Source of the DNA: Bacteroidota bacterium
Lineage (GTDB): Bacteria; Bacteroidota; Ignavibacteria; Palsa-1295
DNA: 64,000 nucleotides
Direction of reading: 5' to 3'
Assembly: GCA_021324735.1 (NCBI GenBank)
Contig: JAJPIO010000007.1
Location: 1-64,000 of the forward strand
A model generated the notes under the pieces. That model did not search any database. It saw only the letters and a program-made list of their open reading frames with translations, and was not told the DNA's origin. A program made the position numbers and the translations under genes. Of this stretch, positions 33,329 to 37,578 are shown piece by piece. Position 1 is the stretch's first letter. Each line of letters begins with the position of its first letter.

Positions 33329-35056
33329 TTATCGTACAACGACAAACCCGGAATCGGGTAAATAGGCAATTGGCAACGCTGCTGTGTCCAGAATCCGAAT
33401 TCGGATCCTACTTGCAGCACCCGAACGTACCTCACAGATGCTATCGATCACTTCAGGCAGTCGGATAGTCATGCCAGGCTGAAGACGAAAATCGCGTCGG
33501 GCAACACCGTTGCTCGGTGAGCCGAATGGATATAGTATCAATTGCGGCGTCGTTGCAGTTACTTCATACTCGTGCTTATCGATCTTTTTCCATTGAAGAC
33601 CGCTATAGCCCATTTTTCGATCGAGTGCGAACACGTTAACCGCTCCCCACATATCAACATTAACACCTGCGATCGAAGCATCTTGTCGATTGCGGTTCGA
33701 AATTCGATCCGCTTCCACACGTTGGATGACACCGCCAAGATCGGGCATCAGTACGGAAGCACTCCCCAACTTTGCAGGACATAACAGAATACCTAAATTC
33801 AGTGGCCGCCGTTTATCAGAATCCAAGATTCGGGAAAATTGCGGAAGCAGCTTATCCTTCAGTGCTGTACTGGCCCTCCATTCTGCTTGTGCATTCAGTG
33901 CGCGAAATATATGGAAAAAGCCTAACAGGACAAAGGCAGCAATTGCAATTCCCTTGAAAGTTCGTGACCGGTTGCGATTAACAAGTAAAACGATCAATGC
34001 GAAGAGCCCGACGGAAGGAAGATATATTCTCCACCGTTCGAAACTGATAGCGAGAACTCCCCCGGTGAGTATAATAAAGAATATTGGCTTCCACAACGAT
34101 CGCCAATCTTTATTACCGCGCATAAGCATCCATACAAACACTGCCGCTAACACTGCACCCGTCACGAGAGCAGCCATCCCGTATTCACCGATGATCTTAG
34201 TAGCCGTTTGCAGATCGAGCGGTAGGATCGAATATCCTAAGGCATAAGCCGAATTACGTAAGGCAGCAACGATGGAATGGCCGCCTTCTGCAGAAAGGGC
34301 TTCACTGTTAAGTGGGCTTCCAGTAAACTGTGCATGATATATATATACTACAACCGCTGCAAGCAGGTATGGGGTAAGACGCTTTACTTCTTGCTTCCAG
34401 TTAAAGCGGTCTTTCACACTGGGATCCGATAATACTAATGGGATCAATATCGGTAAAATGATCGCCACTTCTTTTGCCAACACTGCCGCAATAAAGGAAA
34501 GAAGGGCAAAAAAACGAAAAAGCCACGATCGGCGATGACGAGCCTGATACTCCAGGATTAATGTTAGCAGCACGAAGATCGCCAGGACCACATCCACCCG
34601 CATGGCGTCCACCGTAAGATTTAATTCATGGCTCGCAGCTATCCCGAATGCGAGGGTCGTACATAAGGCCTCGCCGATCGTCAGCTTAAATACATCTCGA
34701 GATACATAAAAAACGAGGAGTGTTGCGATGAGATGCGTCAATAAACTAGTAAGGTGGAACATTGGACCATTCCAGCCAAACAAGAGAAAATCAGCCGACA
34801 TGGTTACCGCTGATACAGGCCGGAAATAATATGGATTTGGATCGGGGACAATAAACGGACGGATCAGATCATACGAACTATGGATCGGCGCCGCCGCAGC
34901 GAGACCTTCATAATCGTCCGAGTTCACACCGATGCCGATAACACCGCTCCACAACAGCGCCGTCGCTGCAAGGATCAGAACGAGAAAGAGTGGATAGCGA
35001 GACTTTAAATTCACAATGTTTTTAGAAGAGAACAGACCCCGCAACACGCGCCTCAT
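33329..35056 (-). CDS. multi-pass membrane protein, glycosyltransferase-39-like
   Basis: A roughly 570-residue inner-membrane protein with about ten hydrophobic helices. It has the architecture of GT-C/PMT-type transferases or TMTC-like proteins: an early acidic motif after the first helix (GVNSDDYEGLA, in the position of the catalytic Asp pair), FRPVSAVTMSADFLLFG, and a long soluble C-terminal part of about 150 residues. No full family signature is certain. The start is unclear: the Met at 35056 overlaps ogt by 35 bp, whereas a GTG at 35014 lies just after the ogt stop. It is followed by rsmA with no gap. Confidence 0.65.
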   Translation of the reverse strand: MRRVLRGLFSSKNIVNLKSRYPLFLVLILAATALLWSGVIGIGVNSDDYEGLAAAAPIHSSYDLIRPFIVPDPNPYYFRPVSAVTMSADFLLFGWNGPMFHLTSLLTHLIATLLVFYVSRDVFKLTIGEALCTTLAFGIAASHELNLTVDAMRVDVVLAIFVLLTLILEYQARHRRSWLFRFFALLSFIAAVLAKEVAIILPILIPLVLSDPSVKDRFNWKQEVKRLTPYLLAAVVVYIYHAQFTGSPLNSEALSAEGGHSIVAALRNSAYALGYSILPLDLQTATKIIGEYGMAALVTGAVLAAVFVWMLMRGNKDWRSLWKPIFFIILTGGVLAISFERWRIYLPSVGLFALIVLLVNRNRSRTFKGIAIAAFVLLGFFHIFRALNAQAEWRASTALKDKLLPQFSRILDSDKRRPLNLGILLCPAKLGSASVLMPDLGGVIQRVEADRISNRNRQDASIAGVNVDMWGAVNVFALDRKMGYSGLQWKKIDKHEYEVTATTPQLILYPFGSPSNGVARRDFRLQPGMTIRLPEVIDSICEVRSGAASRIRIRILDTAALPIAYLPDSGFVVVR

Positions 35057-35501
35057 GGTCGAGTAGCCAGCGCTTGCGCCAAAGCCCACCGCCATAGCCC
35101 GTGAGCGAACCATCACTACCGATCACGCGATGACAAGGGATAACGATCGCAATGGGATTAGCACCATTGGCACGTCCTACCGCCCGAATTGCTCCGAGAT
35201 TATTTAGCCGCCTGGCTATATCGAGATAAGAGCAAGTAGCACCAAACGGAATGGAGGTTAACTCCTGCCAAACTTGCTTCTCAAATGCTGTCCCCTGGGG
35301 TTCAAGCTGTAGTGTAAATTCTGTGCGGCCGCCGCGAAAAAAATCCTGAAGTTCCTCGATCGCTTTTTGGGTTAATGGTGACGGGCTCTGCTCCACAGAA
35401 GGGGCTTCTACAAAAAGAATAGACGAAATGGCCTCCGCGGTTGCGGAGATCTGTATATGGCCAACGGGCGACTCGAACGATTCGATGAATAACTGTTCCA
35501 C
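35022..35501 (-). CDS. ogt: methylated-DNA--protein-cysteine methyltransferase
   Basis: A suicide repair protein that takes the methyl group from O6-methylguanine (and O4-methylthymine) onto its own cysteine. The 159-residue protein has the hallmark IVIPCHRVIGSDGSLTGYGG with acceptor C123, preceded by the helix RAVGRANGANP and the DNA-binding TAFEKQVWQEL. The N-terminal domain is short but normal for single-domain Ogt proteins. It leads the run ogt / membrane protein / rsmA / PAP2. Confidence 0.94.
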   Translation of the reverse strand: MEQLFIESFESPVGHIQISATAEAISSILFVEAPSVEQSPSPLTQKAIEELQDFFRGGRTEFTLQLEPQGTAFEKQVWQELTSIPFGATCSYLDIARRLNNLGAIRAVGRANGANPIAIVIPCHRVIGSDGSLTGYGGGLWRKRWLLDHEARVAGSVLF

Positions 35502-35595
35502 CTTCTCAGAACAGCGCTTTTTGGTGGTGAAATCCTTTAAATAACGGTATATTCTGTCACGAACTCAAATAGGTCAAGTGCCGTTATTTTTTTCA

Positions 35596-35647
35596 CGTCG
35601 TGCTTTGACCAACAGCTTGCCGCGACGCTAAATAAGCAGCTAAAGCG
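35596..35647 (+). ncRNA. SAM-II-type riboswitch candidate upstream of metH
   Basis: The segment fits the compact H-type pseudoknot of SAM-II. P1 is 7 bp (CGTCGTG 35596-35602 with CGCGACG 35621-35627, one G-U). Its loop begins CTTTGACC, at the place of the conserved AUUUxxCC segment. After P1 follows CTAAATAAGCAGCTAAA, matching the conserved tail pattern (..AAA.AAG..GCUAAA, 35628-35644). Loop GCTT can pair with AAGC, and GCTTT with AAAGC, giving the pseudoknot. SAM-II senses S-adenosylmethionine and controls methionine genes. The next gene is a methionine synthase. The comparison is from memory of the family; a covariance-model scan is needed. Confidence 0.68.
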
Positions 35648-35695
35648 TGTAAGAGCGCGCAGCCACGGTTGCGCAATTAATTCTAAACTACTTGC

Positions 35696-35746
35696 ACACC
35701 CCGTTGGTCGAGGCGCAACGTGCGTCCGTAACTAACGGGGTGTTTT
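35696..35746 (+). terminator. terminator-like hairpin that also covers the metH ribosome site
   Basis: A 13-bp stem (ACACCCCGTTGGT at 35696-35708 with ACTAACGGGGTGT at 35731-35743, one G-U) is followed by TTTTGT and then the metH ATG at 35749. The internal GGCGCA / TGCG(T)CC can extend it. The right arm contains GGGG 9 nt before the start codon, so the hairpin could either stop transcription or hide the ribosome site. The left-arm segment CTTgcACAC can alternatively pair with GTGTAAG (35647-35653) at the edge of the riboswitch, a possible antiterminator. Confidence 0.65.
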
Positions 35747-35748
35747 GT

Positions 35749-37578
35749 ATGATGGACCTTCAGAATATTATTCGAGAGCGCGTGCTGGTGTTTGACGGGG
35801 CGACTGGCACCAACCTTCAGACGCAAAACCTGACACCCGATGATTTTGGTGGAGAGCACCTCGCTGGCTGTAATGAGTATCTCATTCGTTCAAAGCCATC
35901 GGCGGTCGAACGAGTACACTCCGACTACCTTTCGGCTGGTGCTGACATTATCGAGACCGACACCTTTGGCTCGTCCTCCATTGTGCTCGCAGAATATGGT
36001 ATTGAATCGCTCGCGTATGAACTTTCGAAGGAAGGCGCCGCTATTGCTAAACGCATGGCGAAAGAATTTTCGACGAAAGAAAAACCGCGCTTTGTAGCAG
36101 GCTCCATCGGACCCACCACGAAATTACCTTCGCTCGGACATATTACGTTCGATGCGATGCATAACTCTTATTACGAGCAAATGGCCGGCTTGCTCGATGG
36201 CGGCGCCGATCTCTTTATCATCGAGACCTGTCAGGACCTACTACAGATCAAGGCTGCACTTGCAGCAGCGCAAGACCTATTCCGCGATAAGCGAGTGCGT
36301 ATTCCGGTCATTACCTCTGTCACGATCGAAACAATGGGGACGATGCTCATGGGTACCGAGATCGGTGCAGCGCTTACGGCGCTCGAGCCATACGATATCA
36401 TTTCCATGATCGGAATGAACTGCGCGACCGGGCCAAAAGAAATGGAAGAGAACGTGCGCTATCTGACGCAAACTTCTCCGCTCCCGGTCTTTTGTATGCC
36501 CAATGCCGGTTTGCCCGAAAACATCGGGGGCGTAGCACATTACCATCTGACGCCGGAAGAGCTGGAACGCCACATGAAGCATTTCATTGCCGATCTCGGC
36601 GTATCGGTCGTTGGCGGATGCTGTGGGACAACAAAAGAGCATATTGGCCGGCTCGCAAGTTTAGCAAGCACGGTATCGCCGAAGCAGCGAACGTTCGAGT
36701 GGACTCCTTCCGCAGCCTCCATCTACTCCTCCGTACCGATGCACGTGGAGCCAGCACCCGTTATCGTTGGCGAACGGTGCAATACGAATGGCTCGAAGAA
36801 ATTCCGCGAGCTATTACTCGCTGAAGAATGGGATACTGCCGTTTCAATGGCGAAGGAGCAGGTCAAGGAAGGTGCCCACATGCTGGACCTCTGCGTAGCC
36901 TACGTCGGCCGCGATGAAGTACGCGATATGCACGAGGTGATCACTCGCATGAATACCGCCGTAACAGTGCCGCTCGTTATCGACTCCACGGAATATCAGG
37001 TCATCGAAGAGGCGCTTAAGCATTACGCAGGTCGTGCGATCGTCAACTCCATTAACATGGAAGATGGCGAGGAGAGGATGGCGCACGTTCTACCGTTATG
37101 CAAAAAGTACGGTGCGGCCGTCATCGCTCTTACCATCGATGAAGACGGAATGGCCAAGACTCGCGAAAAGAAATTTCAGATCGCCGAACGTATTATCGAT
37201 CTCTCGGTCAACAAATATGGAATGCGAGAAGAAGACCTCGTCTTCGATACACTTACGTTCACACTTGGTTCAGGTGACGAAGAATTTCGCAAAGCCGGCA
37301 TCGAAACGATAGAAGCAATTCGCATGATCAAACAGGCTCATCCGAAGTGCAAGACAATTCTCGGCGTCTCCAACATTTCGTTCGGACTCAACCCTCACTC
37401 GCGTCATGTGCTGAACTCCGTATTTCTGCATTACGCCATCGAAGCAGGACTCGACATGGCGATCGTACACGCGGCGAAGATCATGCCGCTCCATAAGATC
37501 GACGAGCGCGGACGCGAATTAGCCAAACAGATCGTCTTCGACGAACGCATATTCGAGGAAGTGGCTGTAGCGGCGTAA
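35749..37578 (+). CDS. metH: methionine synthase, homocysteine- and folate-binding modules only
   Basis: This protein covers the first two modules of cobalamin-dependent methionine synthase. The homocysteine module (about residues 1-320) has FDGATGTNLQ, GMNCATGP and GGCCGTTKEH, the three zinc-binding cysteines. The methyltetrahydrofolate-binding TIM barrel (about 340-605) has IVGERCNTNGSKKF, LDLCVAYVGRDE, PLVIDSTE and LGVSNISFGLNP. It stops there: the cobalamin-binding and reactivation domains of a full ~1200-residue MetH are absent, and no such gene is adjacent. Start chosen at 35749 (or the next Met, 35752), just after a strong hairpin; the upstream in-frame codons overlap the regulatory leader. 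Control by SAM is inferred. Confidence 0.9.
   Translation: MMDLQNIIRERVLVFDGATGTNLQTQNLTPDDFGGEHLAGCNEYLIRSKPSAVERVHSDYLSAGADIIETDTFGSSSIVLAEYGIESLAYELSKEGAAIAKRMAKEFSTKEKPRFVAGSIGPTTKLPSLGHITFDAMHNSYYEQMAGLLDGGADLFIIETCQDLLQIKAALAAAQDLFRDKRVRIPVITSVTIETMGTMLMGTEIGAALTALEPYDIISMIGMNCATGPKEMEENVRYLTQTSPLPVFCMPNAGLPENIGGVAHYHLTPEELERHMKHFIADLGVSVVGGCCGTTKEHIGRLASLASTVSPKQRTFEWTPSAASIYSSVPMHVEPAPVIVGERCNTNGSKKFRELLLAEEWDTAVSMAKEQVKEGAHMLDLCVAYVGRDEVRDMHEVITRMNTAVTVPLVIDSTEYQVIEEALKHYAGRAIVNSINMEDGEERMAHVLPLCKKYGAAVIALTIDEDGMAKTREKKFQIAERIIDLSVNKYGMREEDLVFDTLTFTLGSGDEEFRKAGIETIEAIRMIKQAHPKCKTILGVSNISFGLNPHSRHVLNSVFLHYAIEAGLDMAIVHAAKIMPLHKIDERGRELAKQIVFDERIFEEVAVAA

Follow-up and report, generated by a model that had tools for sequence, protein, structure and literature searches.

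The metH leader as a candidate SAM-II riboswitch

The question raised by this locus is whether the leader of a metH gene carries a riboswitch for S-adenosylmethionine (SAM), and if so, which class of aptamer senses the ligand and by which expression platform the gene would be controlled. The locus lies in the first 64,000 nucleotides (positions 1 to 64,000, forward strand) of contig JAJPIO010000007.1 from a Bacteroidota bacterium (assembly GCA_021324735.1), the stretch referred to here as the window. A first-pass annotation, made from the sequence alone, had placed a SAM-II-type candidate with a terminator at 35596-35748, upstream of metH. We conclude, with a probability of roughly 0.87, that a SAM-II riboswitch occupies the leader at 35587-35748 and that it acts by transcription termination to shut off metH-N, the gene for the N-terminal half of a B12-dependent methionine synthase that is split in two. 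The overall interpretation of the first-pass annotation is thereby supported, and the element itself is confirmed at its proposed place, with the 7-bp P1, the loop opening, the AAATAAG..GCTAAA tail and the terminator-like hairpin all lying where they had been put. The parts of the aptamer, all on the plus strand, are as follows.

35587-35660 (+): SAM-II aptamer (SAM_alpha, RF00521), by Rfam cmscan and the family model R1
35596-35602 (+): P1 5' strand CGUCGUG, 7 bp with 35621-35627
35603-35610 (+): loop opening CUUUGACC, read in the sequence
35607-35613 (+): GACCAAC in the loop, assigned as 5' strand both of P2 and of the antiterminator
35617-35620 (+): P2a 5' strand UUGC of the pseudoknot
35621-35627 (+): P1 3' strand CGCGACG, 7 bp with 35596-35602
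35639-35645 (+): GCUAAAG, comprising the P2a 3' strand (GC-AA, with a bulged U) and conserved core
35647-35653 (+): tail GUGUAAG, able to pair with CUUGCAC at 35691-35697 as an inner helix in prefix folds

The aptamer belongs to the SAM-II class

When the 64 kb window was compared with all 4227 Rfam families, two matches reached gathering level, one to a tRNA and the other to SAM_alpha, which matched over its full model (35587-35660) and, at 41.2 bits and E = 7.3e-6, cleared the gathering score of 36. Our own family model, R1, gave 70.9 bits at 35594-35655, a score to which the window sequence itself contributes as a member of the model. The core motifs CUUGC, UAAA-AA and GCUAAA are all present, the tail runs in the order AAAUAAG..GCUAAAG, and GAUUUG appears with an A to C change as GCUUUG, a form common to nearly the whole family.

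Covariation was examined in an alignment of 34 aptamers from the family and the class, in which 93.7% of cells were paired, a figure that stayed at or below 48% in controls with a slid partner strand, and the combined pairing and covariation score stood far above the slid controls. The P1 helix was paired in 95.6% of cells; its pair 6-40 is G-C in 19 sequences and C-G in 15, a compensatory exchange, and its pair 3-43 takes five pair types and is unpaired in 7 of the 34. GCUAAA and the four P2a pairs are invariant, so that P2a, although present, offers no covariation signal. P2b is paired in 83.6% of cells overall and is weak in metH-N leaders, where columns 23 and 24 do not pair; in strict register the window aptamer has two Watson-Crick pairs in this helix. 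The same element precedes metH-N in six other members of the genus examined, and across the genus CUUGC, GCUAAA and the P1 pairing are kept while the flanks diverge. The conservation and covariation on which the first-pass annotation had staked its SAM-II assignment were thus both found, the element being retained in the genus and P1 compensated. Judged by covariance model, conservation and P1 compensation, we regard the window leader as a genuine member of the SAM-II class, and one that presumably binds SAM.

The expression platform is predicted to terminate transcription

Between the aptamer and the gene lie four further features.

35691-35697 (+): CUUGCAC, partner of the tail; ACUACUUGCA recurs in 6 of 8 metH-N leaders
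35697-35742 (+): terminator hairpin with arms CACCCCGUU(GGUC) and AACGGGGUG
35703-35709 (+): GUUGGUC, antiterminator 3' strand within the terminator left arm, pairing with loop GACCAAC
35743-35748 (+): U-tract UUUUGU, abutting the start codon

The hairpin, which reads CACCCCGUUGGUC...AACGGGGUG, has a folding energy of -31.9 kcal/mol (z = -5.95 versus shuffles) and is followed by UUUUGU and then by the AUG at 35749. A hairpin with a U-tract near the start codon was present in all 18 family leaders that carry the aptamer, each with four or more consecutive T after the hairpin, and the distance from U-tract to start, as estimated from the alignment, varied from -3 to 15 nt. In the window the duplex between loop GACCAAC and arm GUUGGUC reaches -14.1 kcal/mol (z -4.5), a value matched by 0 of 200 shuffles, under energy models for duplexes and folds that omit pseudoknots. 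The same complementarity was found at p<=0.025 in 7 of 8 metH-N leaders; in the eighth, that of G007, loop (UUGACCUU) and arm (AAGGUCAA) are both altered and still complementary, with a duplex p of 0.135 that is not significant. When successive prefixes of the growing RNA were folded, loop and arm paired over 6-7 bp in each of the eight metH-N leaders, until the terminator took the place of this pairing near the end of the leader. An intrinsic terminator and a competing antiterminator were therefore both found computationally, and metH-N loops pair more strongly with metH-N than with metH-C platforms (-11.7 versus -7.4 kcal/mol), metH-C being the gene for the other half of the enzyme.

The first-pass annotation had proposed a different antiterminator, GTGTAAG with CTTgcACAC. 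That pairing exists, as GUGUAAG at 35647-35653 with CUUGCAC at 35691-35697 including one U-G pair, but it reaches only p = 0.065 versus shuffles and coexists with the terminator in the platform fold, and we rejected it as the sole switch. It is retained as an inner helix, since it occurs in the same prefix-fold intermediates as the loop pairing. The pairing of loop GACCAAC with terminator arm GUUGGUC is the best-supported antiterminator in these models, and the one with statistical support.

We infer SAM binding, the direction of the switch and termination in the cell along the following lines. When SAM is scarce, the loop GACCAAC would pair with GUUGGUC in the terminator left arm and the tail with CUUGCAC just inside this helix, so that the terminator would come too late to form and metH-N would be transcribed. 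When SAM is plentiful, the closed P1/P2 pseudoknot would hold loop and tail, and the freed GUUGGUC would form the terminator, on which RNA polymerase would halt just before the start codon. A separate SAM-II leader, elsewhere in the genome, would control the metH-C half in like manner.

It is improbable that this SAM-II element acts on translation instead, with the hairpin right arm AACGGGGUG hiding the ribosome-binding site and no termination taking place. A GGGG run at 35737-35740, 8 nt before the AUG, would indeed be covered by the hairpin, but the feature conserved in the 18 leaders is a hairpin with an immediate U-tract, and in several of them no purine-rich site stands out at a spacing that a ribosome could use. 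Transcription termination is favoured because hairpin and U-tract occur in 18/18 leaders and the distance from U-tract to start is not fixed; an additional translational effect may accompany it. The preference of the first-pass annotation for transcriptional control thus appears well founded, given the recurrent hairpin and U-tract and the predicted prefix-folding switch.

Several points weigh against a SAM-dependent terminator at this leader. Ligand binding and termination are here computational predictions, and the eight metH-N leaders are relatives, so that neither the per-leader tests nor the counts are independent. The window U-tract, UUUUGU, is weaker than those of its relatives, and the loop:arm pairing shares only three pairs with the terminator stem, so that exclusion of one by the other may be kinetic and not absolute. 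The replacement of GAUUUG by GCUUUG and the short P2b could also lower affinity. Carried further, these last features would fit a degenerate relic, in which the SAM-II fold is recognisable, SAM is no longer sensed and the terminator serves as a constitutive attenuator; GCUUUG and the unpaired P2b columns 23 and 24 of metH-N leaders speak for it, but the core (CUUGC, GCUAAA) and P1 pairing have been kept across the genus despite diverging flanks, and the loop:terminator-arm complementarity survives a two-sided change in the G007 leader, which makes a relic less probable still than translational control. That the aptamer belongs to SAM-V or another SAM class is very improbable, for although SAM-V shares the ligand and the pseudoknot fold (PMC6061858), a cmscan of 35400-35900 against all 4227 Rfam families at E<=10 returned SAM_alpha and no match to SAM-V or any other SAM class, in agreement with the SAM-II identity first proposed.

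A candidate promoter precedes P1

Just upstream of the aptamer we noted one candidate promoter.

35561-35585 (+): candidate promoter GAACT-N16-CGTT, extracytoplasmic function (ECF) sigma-like (-35 GAAC, -10 CGTT), ending 10 nt before P1

Of 18 family leaders, 11 have the exact pattern in a comparable position and all 18 have a looser form of it, against a mean of 0.01 exact matches in mononucleotide shuffles of the upstream stretches. In family metH leaders it lies 8-14 nt before P1, and it occurs also in the metH-C leader (L018 6291-6315). We take GAACT-N16-CGTT in these leaders to resemble ECF-type promoters, and the assignment to an ECF sigma factor is a suggestion from the motif. No sigma-70-type promoter was found at the window leader. 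As a general promoter of this genome GAACT-N-CGTT was rejected, because with 32 sites versus 93 for a reversed control pattern it is not enriched.

The downstream gene encodes half of a methionine synthase

35749-37578 (+): metH N-terminal half, 609 aa, Pfam PF02574 (3.2e-84) and PF00809 (6.9e-48)

The first-pass annotation had named the target as metH. It is indeed a methionine-synthase gene, but its product consists of the homocysteine S-methyltransferase and pterin-binding domains only and stops after the latter; no B12 domain was found by Pfam in the 609-aa protein. The B12-binding and reactivation domains are encoded by a separate 637-aa gene on another contig of the same genome (G000:C1). 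By domain content, then, the window gene encodes only the N-terminal half of B12-dependent MetH. The N half contains NCATGP and GGCCG and the C half contains DVHDIG and RYSFGYPACP, motifs that we take to be those expected of working MetH halves. Wherever both halves were found in a family genome, they were on different contigs; from G007, which is 67% complete, no C half was recovered, and from G010 only part of one. At loci from distant Ignavibacteria, Acidimicrobiia and Alphaproteobacteria, the C-half match mostly follows directly after the N-half match, an order which, judged by match positions, would fit a fused gene. The nearest named relative of the window gene, 86% identical, comes from a Candidatus Kapaibacterium sp. 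assembly, which NCBI places in the Bacteroidota.

A 6-O-methylguanine-DNA methyltransferase-like gene (35022-35501, minus strand) diverges from metH-N and has the intergenic region in common with it. Two more homocysteine-methyltransferase-like genes in the genome (G000:C7:276892-277626 and G000:C15:488318-489157) show 32% and 30% identity to metH-N, and the family model found no SAM-II element near either.

A second copy, with a different predicted wiring, precedes metH-C

The leader of metH-C on G000:C1 has its own SAM-II core and terminator, together with a 21-nt hairpin (L018 6356-6376) between the P1 3' strand and L3. Because of this inserted hairpin, the Rfam score of the metH-C aptamer (L018 6324-6404) falls to 19.8 bits, below the cut-off; it reaches 41.2 bits with a model made of 34 elements from the family and the class, although this aptamer was not among them. 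In the family genomes the 34-element model placed SAM-II before metH-N and metH-C only. It precedes metH-N in genera g1 and g2, with none found there in the loci examined from genera g3-g5, and it precedes metH-C in 6 of 7 g1 genomes and in the g3 and g5 genomes. None was detected before metH-C of G003 (L120), a genome whose metH-N has an insert-bearing copy.

Complementarity to the terminator arm resides in the tail, not the loop, of the metH-C leaders in this genus (6/6 at p<=0.02); in the metH-C leader of this genome the tail segment CGACGC would pair with GCGUCG. Two further inserts occur in the genus, before metH-C of G005 (L108) and metH-N of G003 (L130), again between the P1 3' strand and L3. 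All three inserts fold as hairpins of differing sequence, that of G005 no better than shuffles (z -1.4). A widespread hairpin-insert form of SAM-II was considered and rejected: in 391 genomes of the class a gapped pattern picked out three clear cases, each of them from this genus, and also G251, with a shorter insert, the remaining matches not having been checked one by one.

The balance tips slightly towards a picture in which two unlinked enzyme halves are kept in step by two oppositely wired SAM-II switches, the P2 5' strand acting as antiterminator in metH-N and the 3' strand in metH-C, and in which the SAM-II fold of the genus tolerates an extra P1-L3 hairpin that leaves such copies far below the Rfam cut-off in this genome and hence under-counted.

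Relation to known SAM-II and MetH systems

The rarity of SAM-II in the phylum, which the first-pass annotation had left open, can be narrowed at the level of the class, where the element is not rare: SAM_alpha matched 62 of 391 genomes at E<=0.001, 31 of them above the cut-off. The class elements inspected precede metH, metK and pyridoxal phosphate-dependent genes that read as metY-type, among others. SAM-II pairs about 100-240 nt apart were seen in G384, G336, G305, G164, G311, G291, G342, G280, G215 and G266, some with a terminator-like hairpin after each; such tandem pairs are not new, having already been described (PMC9481103).

A few Bacteroides-group members were already reported with the original SAM-II elements (Corbino et al., 2005; PMC1273637), and SAM-II in that group, terminator platforms, which are common among published elements (PMC1273637, PMC2258182), and tandem arrangements are likewise published (PMC1273637, PMC2258182, PMC9481103). 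The window element resembles those of PMC1273637 in P1, the pseudoknot P2, the GCUAAA core, a methionine-pathway target, a promoter just before P1 and a terminator between P2 and the gene, but differs in its lineage near Kapaibacterium, its half-metH target, GCUUUG for GAUUUG, the short P2b, the loop-strand antiterminator and the P1-L3 hairpin of some sister copies. In Sinorhizobium meliloti the metZ terminator is likewise predicted to form upon SAM binding, but the metZ and metA elements do not form a pair serving the two halves of a single enzyme (PMC9373788). Tandem SAM-II and SAM-II/SAM-V arrangements also combine more than one SAM-II per genome with terminator platforms, but they stand serially on one mRNA (PMC9481103), whereas here single copies precede two unlinked genes for one enzyme. 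In the part of the account of Proteobacteria SAM_alpha regulons available to us, metH is not named among the targets (PMC4239095). B12-dependent methionine synthase divided between genes is known, the published examples coming in three parts or being cut behind the first domain or ahead of the reactivation domain (PMC5764234, PMC7311316), but here the break falls between the pterin and B12 domains. No description of SAM-II in this lineage or on a split metH was found in the literature searched, most subscription journals lying outside the search. What is new is that the two enzyme halves carry copies wired differently, and that some aptamers contain an inserted hairpin; Bacteroidota SAM-II, terminator platforms and divided MetH proteins had been described before.

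As a switch the element is of an expected kind; what it contributes is a SAM-II leader whose terminator platform has been worked out, from a lineage that has received little study. The copies with an inserted hairpin suggest that surveys relying on the present Rfam model overlook some SAM-II members. The two separated halves of one enzyme each lie behind the same predicted metabolite sensor, and their leaders form a natural pair: in them one and the same aptamer would bring about termination via either strand of its pseudoknot.
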